A stretch of 64,000 nucleotides of DNA from contig JAUMVG010000004.1 of the NCBI GenBank assembly GCA_030530315.1, forward strand, positions 21,730 through 85,729, written 5' to 3'. The notes below the pieces were generated by a model. That model had not been told where the DNA came from. It searched no databases and was given only the letters and a program-made list of their open reading frames with translations. This document shows, piece after piece, positions 11,037 through 45,102 of the stretch. Source of the DNA: Clostridia bacterium. GTDB taxonomy: Bacteria > Bacillota > Clostridia > Christensenellales > Aristaeellaceae. Numbering within the stretch: the first letter of the stretch is position 1; each line of letters starts with the position of its first letter. A program made the translations under genes and the position numbers.

Positions 11037-12185
11037 TTATTCGACGGTCTGCTCAGCCACGAACACCCAGTCGCCGGTGGCATTGTCGATCTTCTTGACG
11101 AAGGCCGCGTCGCGGATGGCGTCGCCCACCTCGTCGAAGGCGATGGCGCCGGAGACGCCGGTCAGGGTCACGCCCGGCAGCGCCGCCAGGACGGCCGCGG
11201 AGTCGGTGGAGCCGGCGGCCTTCAGGGCCTCGAGGGCGGTGTAGTAGGCGTCATAGCCCATGGCGGACACGGCGGAGATCATGTCGTTGCCGCCATTGTT
11301 GGTCATGGCCTCGGCGTTGGAGTTCAGCCAGGCCTTGAAGCCCTCGTCGAACTCGGGAGAAGCGCCTTCCTGATAGAAGGTGGTGATGATGACTTCCACG
11401 CTGGTGCCCTTGGCGGCCTCGGCCACCACGTTGCTGTCCAGGGTGTCGCCGCCCAGGATCGGGAAGGTCACGCCCTGGCTGGCGGCCTGCTGGATGATCT
11501 GGGTGGAGTAGGCGATGGACACCGGGCAGAAGAACACGTCCGCGGAGTACATGGCCGCGTTGGTCAGGTAGCTGGTGAAGTCAGCGGTGTTGGTGGGGAA
11601 GCTCTCCGCCACGACGGTGCCGCCCAGGCCCTCAAAAGCCTGCTTGAAGTAGGTCACCAGGCCCTGGTCATAGTCGTTGCCCAGCTCGCCCAGGCAGTAG
11701 GCGGTCTTCGCGCCCAGCTCCTTGGCGGCATAGTTGGCAAGGACGGTACCCTGGAAGGGATCCAGGAAGCAGATGCGGAAGTAGTGGCTGTTGCCCGCGG
11801 TGACCTGCGGGTTGGTGCAGGTGACGCCGATGGCGGGGATGTTGGCATCCGCGAAATACTGGGAACCAGCGATGGAGACGCCGGAGCCGTAGCTGCCCAG
11901 CACCACGCTCACGCCTTCGGAGACCAGCTGCTGCGCGGCGGAGGGCGCCTTGTCGGTGGAGGAGCCGTTGTCGGCATAGACCAGCTCGACGTCATACTCG
12001 ACGCCGCCGATCTCGACGGTGGGGGTCTCCTGGTTCGCGTACTGCATGCCCAGGGTCTCCTGCTTTCCGCCAGCGCCGCTGTCGCCGGAGGCGGGCTCAA
12101 ACACGCCGATCTTCACGGTCTCGGCCATGGCGGCCACGGAGAAAACCAGCATCAATGCCAGAACGATTGCCAATACCTTTTTCAT
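11037..12185 (-). CDS. livK: Branched-chain amino-acid ABC substrate-binding protein
   Basis: This is the extracytoplasmic receptor of the Liv importer (382 residues). The signal peptide is MKKVLAIVLALMLVFSVAAMA, followed by VKIGVFEPASGDSGAGGKQ, the typical start of the type I periplasmic-binding fold for leucine/isoleucine/valine. No lipobox cysteine follows the signal peptide, unlike most monoderm binding proteins. The start at 12185 has AAAGGAGG upstream; the frame extends to 12242 across the promoter. It is the first gene of the operon, with its own strong promoter. The exact ligand is inferred from the permease and ATPase partners. Confidence 0.93.
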   Translation of the reverse strand: MKKVLAIVLALMLVFSVAAMAETVKIGVFEPASGDSGAGGKQETLGMQYANQETPTVEIGGVEYDVELVYADNGSSTDKAPSAAQQLVSEGVSVVLGSYGSGVSIAGSQYFADANIPAIGVTCTNPQVTAGNSHYFRICFLDPFQGTVLANYAAKELGAKTAYCLGELGNDYDQGLVTYFKQAFEGLGGTVVAESFPTNTADFTSYLTNAAMYSADVFFCPVSIAYSTQIIQQAASQGVTFPILGGDTLDSNVVAEAAKGTSVEVIITTFYQEGASPEFDEGFKAWLNSNAEAMTNNGGNDMISAVSAMGYDAYYTALEALKAAGSTDSAAVLAALPGVTLTGVSGAIAFDEVGDAIRDAAFVKKIDNATGDWVFVAEQTVE

Positions 12186-15410: not shown

Positions 15411-15500
15411 TTTTTGTCCTCCCCCACTTTCCCCGTTGCCGTCACCCCCTGTACTTCCTGCTTGTCCCACGTTTCCTGTCGTTCTCCGGCATTCTGACTG

Positions 15501-15542
15501 TTGCCTGTTGCCTATTGCCTATTGCCTGCTGCCTGTTGCCTC
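15501..15542. repeat. six tandem copies of a 7-base unit (TTGCCTR)
   Basis: Units TTGCCTG, TTGCCTA, TTGCCTA, TTGCCTG, CTGCCTG and TTGCCTC follow one another without gaps, 53 bases upstream of the -35 box of the cyst(e)ine transporter leader. Confidence 0.9.
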
Positions 15543-15594: not shown

Positions 15595-15623
15595 TTGACA
15601 GTCCCCGTCCGCAGCGCTATACT
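15595..15623 (+). promoter_or_regulatory. consensus sigma-A promoter of the permease/ATPase unit
   Basis: A perfect TTGACA (15595-15600) and TATACT (15618-15623) have a 17-base spacer. Transcription would start near 15630, about 27 bases before the leader ORF. Confidence 0.88.
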
Positions 15624-15656
15624 TTTTCATATCATAAGGCAAGGGAGGCATGGCGC

Positions 15657-15743
15657 ATGACGGCGAGAATCGGCCTGCGCGTGGGTGTGGCTGCGTGTTG
15701 TATGGCATCCTGCTTTGCCATGCCCGGACGCCGCCCGCAATGA
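15657..15743 (+). CDS. Cys-codon leader peptide A (28 codons)
   Basis: This short ORF begins with ATG at 15657, 8 bases after an AAGGGAGG ribosome-binding site. An earlier ATG at 15650 is too close to that site. It encodes 28 residues with adjacent Cys14-Cys15 (TGT TGT at 15696-15701), then Met, and Cys19 (TGC). A small hairpin (15702-15707 with 15716-15721) begins immediately after the two TGT codons. A GC-rich intrinsic terminator follows 17 bases after the stop codon, and the permease genes follow that. Promoter, ORF, cysteine codons and terminator form the layout of a ribosome-mediated attenuator sensing Cys-tRNA. The same layout and the same 28-codon length occur again at 18091-18177. 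The mechanism is inferred. Confidence 0.72.
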   Translation: MTARIGLRVGVAACCMASCFAMPGRRPQ

Positions 15744-15759
15744 TACATTCCTCGCACAT

Positions 15760-15785
15760 GAGCGGCCCGAAGGGGCCGCTCTTTT
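15760..15785 (+). terminator. attenuator terminator A
   Basis: A perfect 9-bp stem (15760-15768 with 15773-15781), a GAAG loop and TTTT at 15782-15785. It lies between the leader peptide and the first permease gene, so readthrough must be controlled for the operon to be expressed. Confidence 0.88.
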
Positions 15786-15902
15786 CATAACCCAACGCCC
15801 GCACGCGCTCCCGGCGCGGCGGCATAGCATAGACCGGGGCAGCTCCCGTACCCGCCCGGACACCGGCGCGGGCATCCGACGAACTCCGAAAGGACTGAAC
15901 CC

Positions 15903-16577
15903 ATGGATTTCGACTTTATCCAGCGCTTCGTGCCCATGTACGTCAAGGCCGCGGAGCTGACGCTGCGCATCGGCGCCATCGGCATACTGCTGTCGCTGGC
16001 TGTGGGCGTGCTCTGCTGCCTCACGCGGTACTTTCGCGTGCCGGTGCTGAGGCAGGTCGCCGCTGCCTACATCGAGCTGGCGCGGAACACGCCGCTGCTG
16101 GTCCAGCTGTTCTTCCTGTACTTCGGCCTGCCGAAGGTGGGCGTCAAGCTGAGCGCGGAGGCTTGCGCCATCACGGGCCTGACGTTCCTGGGCGGGGCCT
16201 ACATGGCGGAGGCGCTGCGCAGCGGCCTGGAGGCGGTGGACAAGGCGCAGGCGGAGTCCGGCATGTGCCTCGGGCTGACCACGCTGCAAAACCTGCGGTT
16301 CGTGATCCTGCCCCAGGCGCTGGCCACGGCCATTCCCGCCATCGGCGCCAACGCCATCTTCCTGATCAAGGAGACCAGCGTGTTCAGCGCCGTGGCCCTG
16401 GCGGACCTGATGTACGTCGCCAAGGACCTGATCGGCATGTACTACAAGACGGACGAGGCGCTGCTGATGCTGACGGTGGCCTACCTGGCGCTGCTGCTGC
16501 CGCTCTCCATCGCCTTCTCGCTGTTGGAAAGGAGGCTGCGCTATGCAGGATTTGGTAATTCTGTTCAGGGGCAATAA
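15903..16577 (+). CDS. Polar amino-acid ABC permease, subunit 1 (probable cyst(e)ine importer)
   Basis: The polytopic permease (224 residues) belongs to the HisM/GlnP family. The N-terminal part has the family stretch AAYIELARNTPLLVQLFFLYFGLP, and the coupling loop is EAVDKAQAESGMCLGLTTLQ followed by LPQALATAIPAIGANAI. An AAAGGA site precedes the ATG. It is the first structural gene behind Cys-codon leader A, and the second permease overlaps it by 35 bases. Cyst(e)ine as substrate is inferred from the leader and from the CjaA-like binding protein at 18291; the permease sequence alone does not decide among polar amino acids. Confidence 0.9.
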   Translation: MDFDFIQRFVPMYVKAAELTLRIGAIGILLSLAVGVLCCLTRYFRVPVLRQVAAAYIELARNTPLLVQLFFLYFGLPKVGVKLSAEACAITGLTFLGGAYMAEALRSGLEAVDKAQAESGMCLGLTTLQNLRFVILPQALATAIPAIGANAIFLIKETSVFSAVALADLMYVAKDLIGMYYKTDEALLMLTVAYLALLLPLSIAFSLLERRLRYAGFGNSVQGQ

Positions 16578-17211
16578 CCTGCGGCGGCTGCTGGGCGGCC
16601 TCGGCGTCACGCTGAAGCTTTCGCTGGTGTCCGTGGCGCTCTCCATCGCCCTGGGCCTGGTGGTCGGCACGCTGATGACGCTGAAGAACCCCGTGCTGAA
16701 GGCCTTCTTCCGGCTGTGGCTGGAGACGGTGCGCATCGTTCCCCAGCTGGTGCTCCTGTTCCTGGTCTACTTCGGCCTGGCGAAGGCCTTCAACCTGCAA
16801 ATTTCCGGCGAGACCGCCGCGGTGGCGGTATTCACCTTCTGGGGCGCCGGAGAGATGGGCGACCTGGTACGCGGCGCCATCACCTCCATCCCCGTCCACC
16901 AGCGGGAGAGCAGCGCGGCCCTGGGGCTAACCCGGGCCCAGTGCTGGCGCTTCGTGCTGCTGCCCCAGGCGGCCCGGCGGCTGGTTCCCCAGGCCATCAA
17001 CCTGACCACCCGCATGATCAAGACCACCTCCCTGGTGATGCTGATCGGCGTGGTGGAGGTGCTGAAGGTGGGCAGCCAGATCATCGACGCCGCCCGCTAC
17101 GACGCCCCCCAGGGCGCGATCTGGGTCTACGCCGCCGTGTTCTTCCTCTACTTTATCGCCTGCTGGCCCATCTCCCTGGCGGCGGGGCGGCTGGAAAAGA
17201 AGTGGAGCTGA
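16543..17211 (+). CDS. Polar amino-acid ABC permease, subunit 2 (probable cyst(e)ine importer)
   Basis: This is the second permease of the same family (222 residues), partner of the preceding one. It has ETVRIVPQLVLLFLVYFGL and the coupling region HQRESSAALGLTRAQCWRFVLLPQA, typical of GlnP/ArtQ-like subunits. The ATG at 16543 lies inside the end of the first permease gene and has AAAGGAGG 7 bases upstream, so the two are translationally linked. The ATPase gene follows after 28 bases. Confidence 0.9.
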   Translation: MQDLVILFRGNNLRRLLGGLGVTLKLSLVSVALSIALGLVVGTLMTLKNPVLKAFFRLWLETVRIVPQLVLLFLVYFGLAKAFNLQISGETAAVAVFTFWGAGEMGDLVRGAITSIPVHQRESSAALGLTRAQCWRFVLLPQAARRLVPQAINLTTRMIKTTSLVMLIGVVEVLKVGSQIIDAARYDAPQGAIWVYAAVFFLYFIACWPISLAAGRLEKKWS

Positions 17212-17239
17212 CTTTTCACAATAATCTGGAGTGATGATC

Positions 17240-18004
17240 ATGAATGACAAGCCCATCCTCGAGGTCAGGCACCTGCGCAAGCACTTTGACGGCACCGGCG
17301 TGCTGGAGGACGTGTCCTTCGCCATGCGCGAGGGCGAGGTCATCGTCGTGGTGGGCCCCAGCGGCTGCGGCAAGTCCACGCTGCTGCGATGCATCAACGG
17401 CCTGGAGCGCCCCGACGACGGCGAGATCCTGCTGGACGGCGCGCGCATCGACGGCGCGGCGGACCTGGTGAAGGTGCGCCGGCAGGTGGGCATGGTGTTC
17501 CAGAGCTACGATCTGTTCCCCCACATGGACGTGATGGGCAACCTGACCCTGGGGCCCGTCCAGGCCCTGAAGCAACCCCGCGCCCAGGTGGAGGCCGAGG
17601 CGGAGAAGGCGCTGGCCCGGGTGGGCCTGGCGGACAGGGCCCACGCCCTGCCCCGGCAGCTCTCCGGCGGCCAGAAGCAGCGCGTCGCGCTGGTCCGGGC
17701 CATGCTGATGCACCCGAGGCTTTTGCTGCTGGACGAAATCACCGCCGCCCTGGACCCGGAGATGGTCCGGGAGGTGCTGAACGTGGTGCTGGACCTGGCC
17801 CGCGACGGCATGACCATGCTGATCGTCACCCACGAGATGCGCTTCGCGGAAGCCGTCGCCGACCGGGTGATCTTCCTGGAGGGCGGCAGCGTACTTGAGG
17901 ACGCCCCGCCGGCGCGGTTCTTCCATGCGCCGGAGACCGACCGCGCCCGCCAGTTCCTGGCCTCCTTCGAGTTCGACGCGGTGCGCCAGGTCCCGAAAGA
18001 TTAA
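17240..18004 (+). CDS. Polar amino-acid ABC transporter ATPase (probable cyst(e)ine importer)
   Basis: The GlnQ/TcyC-type ATPase has 254 residues. Walker A is GPSGCGKST (39-47), the Q-loop FQSYDLFPHMDV lies near 86-97, the signature is LSGGQKQR (140-147), and Walker B is LLLLDEITAALDPE. Three starts are close together (GTG 17231, ATG 17234, ATG 17240). The last was chosen because GGAG at 17228-17231 then has proper spacing. It ends the first transcription unit; the binding-protein unit starts with its own promoter 16 bases after the stop codon. Confidence 0.93.
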   Translation: MNDKPILEVRHLRKHFDGTGVLEDVSFAMREGEVIVVVGPSGCGKSTLLRCINGLERPDDGEILLDGARIDGAADLVKVRRQVGMVFQSYDLFPHMDVMGNLTLGPVQALKQPRAQVEAEAEKALARVGLADRAHALPRQLSGGQKQRVALVRAMLMHPRLLLLDEITAALDPEMVREVLNVVLDLARDGMTMLIVTHEMRFAEAVADRVIFLEGGSVLEDAPPARFFHAPETDRARQFLASFEFDAVRQVPKD

Positions 18005-18019
18005 AAAACGGTAAACCCA

Positions 18020-18048
18020 TTGACAACCTCCTTCGCCCGGCATATAAT
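18020..18048 (+). promoter_or_regulatory. consensus sigma-A promoter of the binding-protein unit
   Basis: A perfect TTGACA (18020-18025) and a perfect TATAAT (18043-18048) have a 17-base spacer, 42 bases upstream of leader ORF B. Confidence 0.92.
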
Positions 18049-18090
18049 GTCCACAACCAACCGGAATGATAGGTAAAAGGAGGCGGTCTC

Positions 18091-18177
18091 ATGACCCGCA
18101 GCAACGCGAACCACCGCATGTGTTGTATGTGCCGTCAGCGCCGCCCTGTGCCTGTCGGTTCTGCCGTCGTGTCCTGA
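18091..18177 (+). CDS. Cys-codon leader peptide B (28 codons)
   Basis: An ideal AAAAGGAGG site sits 7 bases before the ATG at 18091. The ORF encodes 28 residues with Cys11-Cys12 (TGT TGT), Met13 and Cys14 (TGC), followed by an Arg-rich stretch. Three cysteines in four codons is very unusual for a 28-codon ORF. It matches leader A in length, in starting Met-Thr and in the CCM cluster, but the rest has diverged. A terminator lies 29 bases after its stop codon and the cysteine-receptor-like gene follows. A role as a cysteine-sensing attenuator is inferred from this arrangement. Confidence 0.78.
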   Translation: MTRSNANHRMCCMCRQRRPVPVGSAVVS

Positions 18178-18206
18178 TTGGGGCCGAGGGGAGATATAAC
18201 CAGACG

Positions 18207-18249
18207 GAGCGGAATGGACGGCGCTGGCCGGCATTCCGCTCTTTCTGTT
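18207..18249 (+). terminator. attenuator terminator B
   Basis: A perfect 10-bp stem (18207-18216 with 18232-18241) is followed by TTTCTGTTT. The loop is 15 bases. The 3' arm (18232-18238) is also complementary to 18062-18068 near the 5' end of the transcript, a possible alternative pairing. Confidence 0.85.
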
Positions 18250-18290
18250 TATATAATCACTCTGATTTTCATTGAAAGGGAGAAATCATC

Positions 18291-19112
18291 ATGAAGAAGC
18301 TGTTTGCATTGATTCTGGTTCTGGCCATCGCCCTGATCCCCGCCGCCCTGGCAGATGCCCAGGCGCGCAACCTGGATGAGATCGTGGAGAGCGGAAAGCT
18401 GACCATCGGCGTATTCTCCGACAAGAAGCCCTTCGGATATGTGGACGAGAACGGCGAATACCAGGGCTACGACGTCTACTTTGCCCGCCGCCTGGCGGAG
18501 GACCTGGGCGTGGAGCTGGAGCTGGTGAGCGTGGACGCCCCGAACCGCGTGGAGTACCTGACCAGCGCGAAGGTGGACATCATCCTGGCGAACTTCACCG
18601 TCACCCCCGAGCGCGCCGAGGTCGTCGACTTCGCCCTGCCCTACATGAAGGTGGCCCTGGGCGTAGTGAGCCCGGACGACGCCCTGATCACCGACATCGA
18701 GACCCTGCGGGGCAAGACCCTGATCGTCTCCAAGGGCACCACCGCCGAGACCTGGTTCACCGCCAACGAGCCCGACGTGAACCTGCTGAAGTTCGACACC
18801 TACACCGAGACCTTCAACGCCCTGCTGGACGGCCGCGGAGACGCCCTGTCCACCGACAACACCGAGGTGCTGGCATGGGCCCTTGAGAACCCCGGCTTCA
18901 CCGTGGGCATCGAGACCCTGGGCAGCCTGGACACCATCGCCCCCGCCGTGCAGAAGGGCAATGACACCGTGCTGGCCTACATCAACAAGGAGATCGAAAA
19001 GCTGGCCGATGAGCAGTTCTTCCACGCCGACTACGAAGCGACCCTCAAGGAGGTCTACGGCGACGCGGTCGATCCCGACAACCTGGTGGTCGAGGGCGGC
19101 GTCATCGACTAA
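18291..19112 (+). CDS. Cyst(e)ine-type ABC substrate-binding protein (CjaA-like)
   Basis: The 273-residue protein has a signal peptide (MKKLFALILVLAIALIPAALA) and the family 3 solute-binding fold. The sequence closely follows, as I recall it, the cysteine receptor CjaA of Campylobacter: GVFSDKKPFGYVDENGEYQG, NRVEYLTSAKVDIILANFT, ALPYMKVALGV, SKGTTAETWFT and RGDALSTDN. The ANFT and TTAETWFT segments form the ligand pocket in this family. There is no lipobox Cys after the signal peptide, so membrane anchoring is unclear. It is expressed from its own promoter behind leader B, which permits higher levels than the membrane subunits. Confidence 0.9.
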   Translation: MKKLFALILVLAIALIPAALADAQARNLDEIVESGKLTIGVFSDKKPFGYVDENGEYQGYDVYFARRLAEDLGVELELVSVDAPNRVEYLTSAKVDIILANFTVTPERAEVVDFALPYMKVALGVVSPDDALITDIETLRGKTLIVSKGTTAETWFTANEPDVNLLKFDTYTETFNALLDGRGDALSTDNTEVLAWALENPGFTVGIETLGSLDTIAPAVQKGNDTVLAYINKEIEKLADEQFFHADYEATLKEVYGDAVDPDNLVVEGGVID

Positions 19113-19144: not shown

Positions 19145-19255
19145 CCATCTGCTACCGCTTTTGAGCGCAGTGCGCTCAACCCCTTTTGCTGCCGCCTTGA
19201 GCGCAGTGCACTCAACCCCAATTGCTACCGCCTTTGAGCGCAAGGCCCTCATCTT
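19145..19255. repeat. three tandem degenerate repeats of about 36 bases
   Basis: Each unit reads GCTxCCGC, a few T residues, then a GAGCGCAGTGCGCTC-type palindrome and CAACCCC. The third unit is degenerate. A fourth, isolated copy occurs at 59123-59157. They lie in the 19113-19424 gap, in which I see no gene. Confidence 0.8.
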
Positions 19256-19278
19256 CTTTTACTGCCGAACTGTGCTGC

Positions 19279-20089: not shown

Positions 20090-21805
20090 CTATTCGTCCT
20101 CGTCGTCGTCCCCGAAGTTCAGCTGCTCCACGAATTCCTCCTGGAACTCCGGCAGCGTGGCCAGCTCCAGGAACTCGGTGCTCTGCGCCAGCTCCGCCGC
20201 CTGGGCCCACGCCCCGGCGTCCGTCAGCGCCAGCTGGGCCCCGGCCCCGGCGGCGTTGCCCACCGGCACGATGGCCTGCCGCAGCTCAGCGGGCAGCAGC
20301 CCGATGGCGCAGGCGCTGTCCGGGTTGATGTAGTTGCCGAAGGCCCCGGCGATGTCCACCTCTTCGATCTGGTCGATCTGAACGCCCAGGCGTCCGGCCA
20401 TCAGACGCAGGCCCGCGGCCATGGCCGCCTTCGCCAGCTGCACCTCCCGAATGTCCTTCTGGGTCAGGTACACGCCGGTATCCCCGATGTCGAACCGGTC
20501 GCCATCCTCCAGCCGGCCCGTGGCGTCGATGTCACCCCTGGCCAGCAGCGCCGCCACCAGGTCCACCAGGCCGGAGCCGCACAGGCCCTTCGCCGCGCCC
20601 TCGCCGATCACATGCCAGCGCAGCGCGCCTTCCTCCAGCCAGAAGTGGTCGATGGCGCCGTCCGCGCCACGCATGCCGCAGGCGATCTTCGCCCCCTCGA
20701 AGGCGGGGCCCGCCGCGGTGGAGCAGGCGACGCGCCGGTCGCGATTGCCCAGCACCAGCTCGCCATTGGTGCCGATGTCGATCATCAGCGTCAGCTTCTC
20801 CCGGTTCAGCCAGTCGCCGCTGAGCAGGCAGGCCACGGTGTCCGCGCCGACGAAGCCGCCGATCACCGGCAGGGCGAACAGCAGCGCCTCAGGATGGGCG
20901 TGCAGCCCGTATTCCGACGCCCTGAGCGTCAGCGGGCCGCTGACGGTGGGGTTGTAGGGCGCCTTCACCAGCGAGTCCGGGGCGATGCCCAGGAACAGGT
21001 GGTGCATGGCCGTGTTGCCCGCCAGGGAGACGGCGTACACCCGCTCCCAGGAGACCCCGGCTTCGGTGCACATCCGCCGGATCAGCGCGTCCAGCGCGCC
21101 CCTGGCGCACTCGGCCAGCGCCTCCACCCCGTTGTTCAGCGCCCAGTCCGCCCGGGAGATCACGTCCCCGCCGTACTGCGCCTGGGGGTTGCGCATGCCC
21201 TCGGCCACGGGCACGTCCCTCCCGTTCACGTGGATCAGGTAGCCCGCGATGGAGGTGGTGCCCAGGTCGAAGGCCGCCATGTAAACCTCCGGCGGATCGG
21301 CCCGCACCTCGAGCACATGCCCGTCGCTCACCACGGCCCACACCTCGCCCCGGCGCGCGGCCAGCAGCCTGCCCAGTCCGGCGCAGACCGCCAGGTTGAC
21401 CTCCCGCGCCGGACGGCCCTGCGCGTCCAGCGCCGCCGCCAGGCGGTCCCAGTCGGAGGCCCGGTCGCCCTTCTCGCAGGGCGGCACCGTCAGCTTCACG
21501 GCCCGGACCATCGGGTTCCAGCGGCGGACGGGCTCGCCCGCGCCGTCCATCAGCACGCGAAGGCGGCCGCTCTCCGGCAGCCGGACCTCCAGGTCGCCCT
21601 GCACCGCCGTCTGGCACATGATGGCCTCCCGCCAATCTGCCTCGCCTGGCGCGCGGACCTCGCAGGCGCACTTGCCGCAGGTCCCCCTGCCCCCGCAGGG
21701 CGCGTCCGTGGGTAGGCCCGCCGCAATGCGGGCTTCGAGCAGCGTCGTCCCCGCCCGAACGGCGACCTCCCGGCCTTCGGGTTCAAACCGCACCTTGTAA
21801 TCCAT
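20090..21805 (-). CDS. RACo-like ATP-dependent reductive activator of corrinoid protein
   Basis: The 571-residue protein has an N-terminal plant-type [2Fe-2S] ferredoxin domain with ligands Cys37, Cys43, Cys46 and Cys64. A linker follows, then a large C-terminal ASKHA-type ATPase domain with FDLGTTSIAGYL near 190, IDIGTNGELVLG near 345 and AGAFGNYIN near 495. The family (RACo, RamQ-like) uses ATP to return inactive Co(II) corrinoid to Co(I) for methyl transfer. The very acidic C-terminus is unusual. It has its own probable promoter and lies 240 bases downstream of the methyltetrahydrofolate methyltransferase gene. DUF2284 follows. It indicates that a corrinoid methyltransferase system is active here. 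Confidence 0.92.
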   Translation of the reverse strand: MDYKVRFEPEGREVAVRAGTTLLEARIAAGLPTDAPCGGRGTCGKCACEVRAPGEADWREAIMCQTAVQGDLEVRLPESGRLRVLMDGAGEPVRRWNPMVRAVKLTVPPCEKGDRASDWDRLAAALDAQGRPAREVNLAVCAGLGRLLAARRGEVWAVVSDGHVLEVRADPPEVYMAAFDLGTTSIAGYLIHVNGRDVPVAEGMRNPQAQYGGDVISRADWALNNGVEALAECARGALDALIRRMCTEAGVSWERVYAVSLAGNTAMHHLFLGIAPDSLVKAPYNPTVSGPLTLRASEYGLHAHPEALLFALPVIGGFVGADTVACLLSGDWLNREKLTLMIDIGTNGELVLGNRDRRVACSTAAGPAFEGAKIACGMRGADGAIDHFWLEEGALRWHVIGEGAAKGLCGSGLVDLVAALLARGDIDATGRLEDGDRFDIGDTGVYLTQKDIREVQLAKAAMAAGLRLMAGRLGVQIDQIEEVDIAGAFGNYINPDSACAIGLLPAELRQAIVPVGNAAGAGAQLALTDAGAWAQAAELAQSTEFLELATLPEFQEEFVEQLNFGDDDEDE

Positions 21806-44879: not shown

Positions 44880-44940
44880 GTCCTTGTCAAAATCAGCCCC
44901 GGAACCGGGAACACGCCCCGGCGGGGAAAGGCACAATTAA

Positions 44941-45102
44941 TACATAGCGCTCCACAAACGCGGCAGTCAAACGGATATTGTCCGTTTGCCCAGACGAAGC
45001 CCGCCCTCTCCATCTTCGGCAGCGGCCCCTTTCACGGCTGGCAACGGCTTTGCGATGCCTTGCACCAGCGCTAATGATGACAGCTGCGCCTCTATCCTTT
45101 AA
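44941..45102 (-). ncRNA. lysine riboswitch (L box)
   Basis: On the minus strand the leader reads GGATAGAGGCGC at the 5' end, then AGCGCTGGTGC, GAAAGGGGCCGCTGCCGAAG in the core, and a 3' strand ending CTGCCGC...GTGGAGCGCTATG. These are the conserved elements of the L-box aptamer, and GGATAG pairs with CTATG to close P1. It is followed by an intrinsic terminator and dapA, so lysine binding should terminate the dap operon transcript. Confidence 0.92.

Follow-up and report, generated by a model that had tools for sequence, protein, structure and literature searches.

What makes two parts of one importer, encoded side by side in a clostridial genome, each start behind a short cysteine-rich reading frame? 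The locus lies in a 64,000-nucleotide stretch of a Clostridia bacterium of the Aristaeellaceae (positions 21,730 to 85,729 of contig JAUMVG010000004.1, assembly GCA_030530315.1), hereafter the window. There, an amino-acid ABC importer is encoded in two units, one for its permeases and ATPase and one for its substrate-binding protein. Each unit is preceded by a promoter, a Shine-Dalgarno (SD) sequence, an open reading frame (ORF) of 28 codons with adjacent cysteine codons, and a terminator hairpin (leader A before permease 1, leader B before the binding-protein gene; Table 1). We propose that both leaders are, very probably, ribosome-mediated transcription attenuators that read the charging of tRNA-Cys. 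The comparison with other genomes makes this reading well supported for leader B and for a further leader found at cysK, and less so for leader A.

In such a device, a ribosome would translate the short ORF close behind RNA polymerase. With plentiful Cys-tRNA it would reach the stop codon and cover the RNA that separates this codon from the Cys codons, the terminator would form, and transcription would end before the importer gene. With scarce Cys-tRNA the ribosome would stall on the adjacent Cys codons, and the segment downstream would pair, as an antiterminator, with the 5' arm of the terminator. The polymerase would then read into the permease and ATPase genes (leader A) or into the binding-protein gene (leader B). 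We infer cysteine as the signal, translation of the ORFs and coupling of ribosome and polymerase from the comparisons set out below.

The anatomy described in an earlier note on this DNA was found again in full, namely two consensus promoters of the form TTGACA-17-TATA(A/C)T, each followed by a ribosome-binding site, an ORF with adjacent Cys codons and a terminator hairpin. Promoter-like sites with at least nine matches number eight between positions 12000 and 22000, against 1.6 expected in shuffles, and promoter A is kept in most rows of the alignment of the relatives' upstream regions. Terminator B was recognised by folding; a simple scan missed it because its rules need an unbroken stem and a loop of 3-8. 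Just 5' of promoter A lies a tandem heptamer, CTGTTGC (6.3 copies, 15498-15541), and similar text occurs upstream of leader A in one relative (G012).

Conservation was followed in 60 relatives, 28 of which, the window's own genome included, belong to the same genus. An orthologue of the binding protein is encoded in 18 of these 28 genomes (89-100% identity) and in one genome of another genus of the family (G033, 73% identity), and the DNA around all 19 loci was compared. Leader B, a Cys-Cys short ORF with its SD sequence before the binding-protein gene, is present at all 18 same-genus loci and in G033. Leader A is present at 14 of the 16 same-genus loci (of 18) with readable DNA upstream of permease 1. 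Conservation of the short ORF and its Cys codons among close relatives, which the earlier note had set as the check, is what this comparison found; SD sequence, promoter and terminator accompany the Cys-Cys ORF in the relatives' leaders as well.

Within these leaders, the second Cys codon is only ever TGT or TGC (14 A and 18 B leaders). The peptides vary freely before the Cys pair, in agreement with the remark that the other codons have diverged, and leader A's third Cys is not kept. Lengths range from 16 to 28 codons for A and from 21 to 28 for B. Since peptides and lengths drift while the Cys codons persist, it is the Cys pair that is kept and not the length. The suggestion that selection holds ORF length together with the cysteine cluster therefore stands for the cluster and falls for the length, the equal 87 bases of the two leaders being a coincidence of the window strain. 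The distance from start codon to Cys codons (39, 36 or 30 nt in A; 30, 27, 24 or 18 nt in B) changes by whole codons, a regularity that arises partly by construction because the ORFs were sought in frame. In leader B of the window strain and of G023, a one-base deletion after the Cys cluster has altered the C-terminal peptide relative to relatives. Because the frame shifts after RRP while the RNA stays alike, RNA rather than peptide is conserved in these two strains.

For leader B, the stalled state was modelled by placing the ribosome's front edge 12 nt downstream of the base with which the first Cys codon begins, which corresponds to the bacterial ribosome footprint. In this state, the uncovered RNA as far as the terminator loop folds in such a way that the tail of the ORF pairs with the 5' arm of the terminator. 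The first antiterminator pair falls exactly 4 nt past the ribosome edge in 14 of the 18 same-genus B leaders and 0-5 nt past it in the rest. The pairing between the arm and upstream RNA averages 0.72 in the stalled state against 0.18 with the ribosome at the stop codon, the latter value being the lower one in all 19 leaders. Because a longer free stretch pairs more by itself, each leader was compared with 100 shuffles of the upstream stretch and passed if at most five shuffles were as good; by the energy of the stalled state, 15 of the 19 B leaders do better than their shuffles. In the alignment, 89.6% of the antiterminator cells are paired, against 27-44% (maximum 43.7%) when the strands are slid. 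In these models, a competing antiterminator that fits stalling at the Cys codons is thus present in leader B.

Terminator B itself covaries strongly: in an alignment of 18 sequences, 15 of its 24 pairs show changes on both sides, and none of 500 shuffles reaches the observed values for four of five covariation measures. This covariation bears on a translational form of attenuation, in which the stalled ribosome would alter access to the downstream start codon, as reported for mycobacterial cysteine genes. A precedent exists, since the available text of PMC13236596 mentions translational attenuation of Mycobacterium smegmatis cysteine genes. However, a hairpin with a U-rich tail stands between ORF and gene in both units of the window (121 bases before the start codon of permease 1 for A, 43 bases before that of the binding-protein gene for B), and the hairpin of B covaries; we consider the translational form highly improbable here.

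Leaders of the same design occur at importers outside the genus. We examined 80 of 382 loci with related binding proteins, nine of which (L050-L058) are of the window's own genus and overlap the same-genus set. An upstream ORF (uORF) was called Cys-dense when it held at least three Cys in five codons and an SD match of at least 4. Such uORFs precede permease 1 at 15 of 70 loci and the binding-protein gene at 19 of 80, the maxima in 100 dinucleotide shuffles being 2 and 3; leaving out the nine own-genus loci gives 13 of 62 and 10 of 71. Among the 20 residues, this measure ranks Cys first in both sets, followed by Arg with 11 and 15 (the shuffle control was made for Cys only). No Cys-dense uORF was seen at 11 loci of paralogous binding proteins. 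Cys-run leaders whose peptides are otherwise unrelated to those of the genus belong, for instance, to Anaerocolumna (L087, ...SCCCMN; L101, ...SCCCMCIFC; L102, ...NCCCMCIFC), Herbinix (L060, L074), Peptoniphilus (L118) and other Clostridia (L090, L094, L097, L126). At L101 and L102, the ORF ends in ACGGAATAA (final codons with the stop), which matches ATTCCGT in front of the terminator arm.

Among 24 hand-picked loci with Cys-dense or Cys-Cys ORFs, 20 were shuffle-tested; L063, L065, L077 and L112 were left out, the chosen hairpin lying in or over the ORF at L065 and L112 and beginning inside it at L077. In 19 of these 20 leaders from outside the genus (14 at permease 1, 6 at the binding-protein gene), stalling leaves the terminator arm more sequestered. 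By energy, eleven do better than their shuffles (6 at permease 1, 5 at the binding-protein gene), and by pairing five do. A covariance model of six Clostridial leaders (R1) found its source again in the three source genomes tried, with four weak extra hits (E 0.1-0.7). It gave no match in 391 genomes of the class, in a search that scored only eight candidates in each of the 20 genomes listed. As a separate observation, in the consensus of six Anaerocolumna-type leaders the terminator's 3' arm is paired with the Cys codons (L101:3372-3501, L102:3464-3596), possibly a further alternative structure. Taken across these genomes, Cys-codon attenuation might be a widespread and repeatedly re-invented control of sulfur amino-acid acquisition in Clostridia, with unrelated peptides set in the same geometry, a generalisation that we put forward tentatively.

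The same set of peptides speaks to the idea that the sensor would be the Cys-rich nascent peptide itself, arresting the ribosome in response to a thiol-reactive signal, a metal or the redox state, and not to Cys-tRNA supply. In favour of this idea, much of the genus has a similar C-terminal half in leader B (CCMCRxRRPMPCR), Cys clusters are known to bind metals, and B-type and distant leaders are enriched in Met next to the Cys run. Across Clostridia, however, the Cys run alone is common and the remaining peptide is unrelated, the window strain and G023 change frame after RRP with RNA alike, and the downstream genes are, by homology, for cysteine uptake or synthesis, so that we judge a peptide sensor very unlikely. 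Met makes up 77 of the 381 non-Cys residues that lie at most four codons from the run, against 60 of 842 elsewhere (about threefold over all groups). The peptides counted were 12 of the 14 A and 12 of the 18 B leaders (near-duplicates taken out), 11 of the other-genus type, 16 distant ones and 3 of the 4 at cysK. The p-value of 1e-10 is too small because the rows are related by descent, and the enrichment stems from the B-type and distant leaders, with none in leader A or the cysK leaders. Since Met is enriched beside the Cys runs, the attenuators could perhaps read Met as well as Cys codons.

Returning to Cys-codon attenuation, the design is also met at cysK. When 17 cysK loci (15 of the same genus) were read singly, a Cys-run leader was found at four, in G003, G006, G009 and the window's own genome (L177). 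At L177, a promoter TTGACA-17-TATACT is followed by an ORF reading ...CHMSRCCCRGRKPRFSCL. The end of this ORF, final codons plus stop (TTTCTCCTGTCTGTAA), is complementary to TTACAGGAGATT, which lies in and before the terminator ACAGGAGATTCGCAAGGGATCTCCTGT-TTTTTT. The four leaders beat their shuffles in 4 of 4 cases by energy and in 3 of 4 by pairing. Because the cysK of its genome also carries such a leader, genes for uptake and synthesis share one leader design in the window strain, with a separate leader each for the permeases, the binding protein and cysK.

Control genes were counted over the loci returned by the search and not over all paralogues. Within 400 bases upstream, Cys-dense uORFs were found at 0 of 28 cysS loci, 0 of 26 cysE loci, 0 of 23 cysK loci of the distant leader-bearing genomes and 2 of 29 cysK loci of the relatives. 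The cysE count at this distance is weak because the match to the domain often begins deep within the gene, and the better count, within 1500 bases, is again 0 of 26. A single cysS locus (L166 of G042) has a Cys-dense short ORF (MKQCCEPCEPQLL...) within 1500 bases upstream. These numbers address the view that the hairpins form a constitutive or non-cysteine device which sets the ratio of binding protein to permease, the short ORFs being accidental. Two points speak for it: the binding-protein gene of such an operon is often more strongly expressed than the other genes, and leader A's antiterminator is not backed by the statistics. Nevertheless, the Cys-Cys pair is kept at 14 of 16 loci for A and 19 of 19 for B, Cys-dense uORFs stand far above shuffles with none next to control genes, and the design recurs in other Clostridia and at cysK; we judge a constitutive or non-cysteine device very unlikely.

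Several observations weigh against attenuation by cysteine codons. As regards distribution, 10 of the 28 genomes of the genus have distant paralogues only and no orthologue of the importer's binding protein. Leader A is missing in G021, G027 and G033, another gene occupying its place upstream of permease 1 in G027. Most of the orthologous importers examined are without a Cys leader by our criteria, for instance in Blautia, Faecalicatena and Treponema. At cysK the distribution is patchy (11 of the 15 same-genus loci are without such a leader), and three of the four genomes that have one, G003, G006 and G009, have no importer orthologue. As regards leader B, arm pairing beats the shuffles in only 3 of 19 leaders, unlike energy. 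The covariation of its antiterminator is modest: 5 of 17 pairs are changed on both sides, a value reached by 67 of 500 shuffles, and over the five measures the observed values are reached by 14, 67, 32, 306 and 37 of 500. The 1:2 structure, in which the Cys codons pair with RNA beyond the stop codon, reaches 96% pairing with one-sided changes and no covariation, and the U tract of terminator B is mediocre, being weak in the window's subclade.

For leader A, stalling sequesters the arm more than a ribosome at the stop does in 13 of 14 leaders, the exception, G024, responding in the wrong way. The energy of the leader A antiterminator beats the shuffles in only 1 of 14, and arm pairing is no better than shuffles in 11 of 14; the window's own leader A is among the three that do better (1 of 100 shuffles as good). 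In this test the terminator stems were set by hand, including those of G007, G010, G012, G016, G019, G020 and G025. The pair counts for leader A are weak because the alignment is out of register in one subclade (G007, G010, G012, G016, G020 and G025). In the window, ACGCCGCC near the stop codon of leader A can also pair with the arm AGCGGC of terminator A. The GC-rich sequence weakens the shuffle test, and we regard the antiterminator of leader A as inferred. The layout of ribosome-mediated attenuation that the earlier note had recognised in both leaders thus holds for B, which is conserved and has a competing antiterminator, and is less well supported for A, whose antiterminator has an energy no better than that of shuffles in 13 of 14. 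Beside these results, we observed that the importer operon of G021 (L034:1425-2723), which has no leader A, lies about 0.1 kb behind a gene for a pyridoxal-phosphate enzyme of Cys/Met metabolism (PF01053).

Amino-acid genes of Firmicutes are usually under T-boxes, riboswitches or protein regulators, and S-box or T-box control had been named as the usual state of such importers. Rfam models gave no T-box (RF00230) or SAM/S-box (RF00162) match beside the importer in the window and 52 loci, with a T-box cut-off high enough (93 bits) that weak T-boxes could be missed. The matches seen lie elsewhere, a T-box at L093:275-521, more than 3 kb upstream of the permease, and a SAM match at L075:6800-6898, downstream of the binding-protein gene. 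T-box or S-box control of these importers was therefore rejected (0 of 52 loci and the window). Elsewhere in the window, a lysine riboswitch occupies 44937-45102 on the minus strand (73.9 bits).

The substrate is assigned by homology because no NCBIfam equivalog passes its cut-off. Among solved structures, the binding protein is closest to 1xt8 (E 4e-84, 285 bits), which we take to be CjaA, so the resemblance to CjaA reported from the sequence was upheld. It is followed by 2yjp (E 5e-78, 266 bits), presumably the gonococcal cysteine receptor, and the third-best match reaches only 125 bits. According to the available text of PMC4178425, CjaA binds cysteine, a direct role in import being unproven at that time. 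Downstream of the binding-protein gene, a 36-base tandem repeat (3.2 copies, 19150-19267) carries GAGCGCAGTGC(G/A)CTC palindromes.

Table 1. Features of the two importer units in the window, with the cysK leader of the same genome
Feature	Position	Strand	Remarks
Promoter A, TTGACA-17-TATACT	15595..15623	+	11/12 consensus matches
Shine-Dalgarno of leader A, AAGGGAGG	15641..15648	+	read from sequence
Leader peptide ORF A, MTARIGLRVGVAACCMASCFAMPGRRPQ	15657..15743	+	28 codons/87 bases; ORF reading
Leader A region 1, GGCTGCGT	15689..15696	+	abuts Cys codons; would pair with region 2 in ribosome-free RNA
Leader A Cys codons	15696-15701 (adjacent Cys14-Cys15); 15711-15713 (Cys19)	+
Leader A region 2, ACGCCGCC	15728..15735	+	near stop; common to 1:2 hairpin and proposed antiterminator
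Intrinsic terminator A	15760..15785 (hairpin 15760-15781)	+	9-pair stem and UUUU; terminator scan, folding
Permease 1 of amino-acid ABC importer	15903..16577	+	BPD_transp_1, PF00528
Permease 2 of amino-acid ABC importer	16543..17211	+
Importer ATPase	17240..18004	+	PF00005
Promoter B, TTGACA-17-TATAAT	18020..18048	+	12/12 consensus matches
Shine-Dalgarno of leader B, AAAGGAGG	18076..18083	+	read from sequence
Leader peptide ORF B, MTRSNANHRMCCMCRQRRPVPVGSAVVS	18091..18177	+	28 codons/87 bases; ORF reading
Leader B Cys codons (Cys11-Cys12-Met-Cys14)	18121-18126; 18130-18132	+
Antiterminator B, predicted 5' strand	18138..18156	+	within leader ORF, directly downstream of a ribosome halted at the Cys codons
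Terminator B with U-rich tail UUUAUAUAA	18201..18255 (hairpin 18201-18247)	+	folding, -31.7 kcal/mol
Antiterminator B, predicted 3' strand	18203..18224	+	overlaps 5' arm of terminator B
Substrate-binding protein (family 3)	18291..19112	+	CjaA-like, PF00497
cysK leader	L177:1269-1503, contig C114		own promoter and terminator; also in L175, L176, L171

Compared with known systems, the leaders share with the trp, his, leu and ilvB attenuators a promoter, an ORF with cognate codons, a predicted antiterminator competing with an intrinsic terminator, and an amino-acid gene behind. They differ in the residue, which is cysteine, in the targets, an importer (two leaders at one locus) and cysK, and in the Clostridium-like Firmicute host. 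A close parallel is uORFC-8-2, predicted in silico before cysS of Rhodobacterales (PMC8632094), which according to the available text likewise has tandem Cys codons (usually at 14-15) within a short ORF that an intrinsic terminator follows. uORFC-8-2 belongs to Alphaproteobacteria and cysS, whereas here importer and cysK carry the leaders and cysS does not within 400 bases. Actinobacteria, including mycobacteria, also have Cys-run uORFs before cysteine genes, which in the accessible parts of PMC1262725, PMC4633059 and PMC13236596 are leaderless or without recognised terminators. The mycobacterial ones, leaderless and acting by translation attenuation as described there, differ from the present leaders with their SD sequence, promoter-to-ORF spacer and intrinsic terminator. 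Leader-peptide attenuation in Firmicutes itself has a parallel in the His leader peptides that stand before hisS and hisZ in Bacilli in place of T-boxes, there for histidine and synthetase genes (PMC2965389, available text). The available text of PMC3862929 concerns serine codons in B. subtilis and offers no precedent for Cys leaders. Our searches gave no paper that describes attenuation by a cysteine leader in Clostridia or at a cysteine importer, subscription literature being mostly outside the search. The earlier statement that no clostridial importer example has been described thus agrees with the literature searched, which likewise gave no Clostridial cysK version. This kind of attenuation is known or predicted in other bacteria, and none was found described for this group of rumen Clostridia.

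If the reading is true, a signal would be named for a class of unannotated short ORFs, and the substrate of the importer would be supported by its own regulator. The leader type can be put to the test because three Anaerocolumna strains with complete chromosomes carry one (L087, L101, L102), and it would offer a natural reporter for anaerobes of gut and rumen that run short of cysteine. Since the polymerase of Bacillus subtilis is reported to outrun its ribosomes, the leaders also bear on the question of transcription-translation coupling in Firmicutes. Their operation would mean that, over the leaders at least, ribosomes keep close behind RNA polymerase in these Firmicutes.

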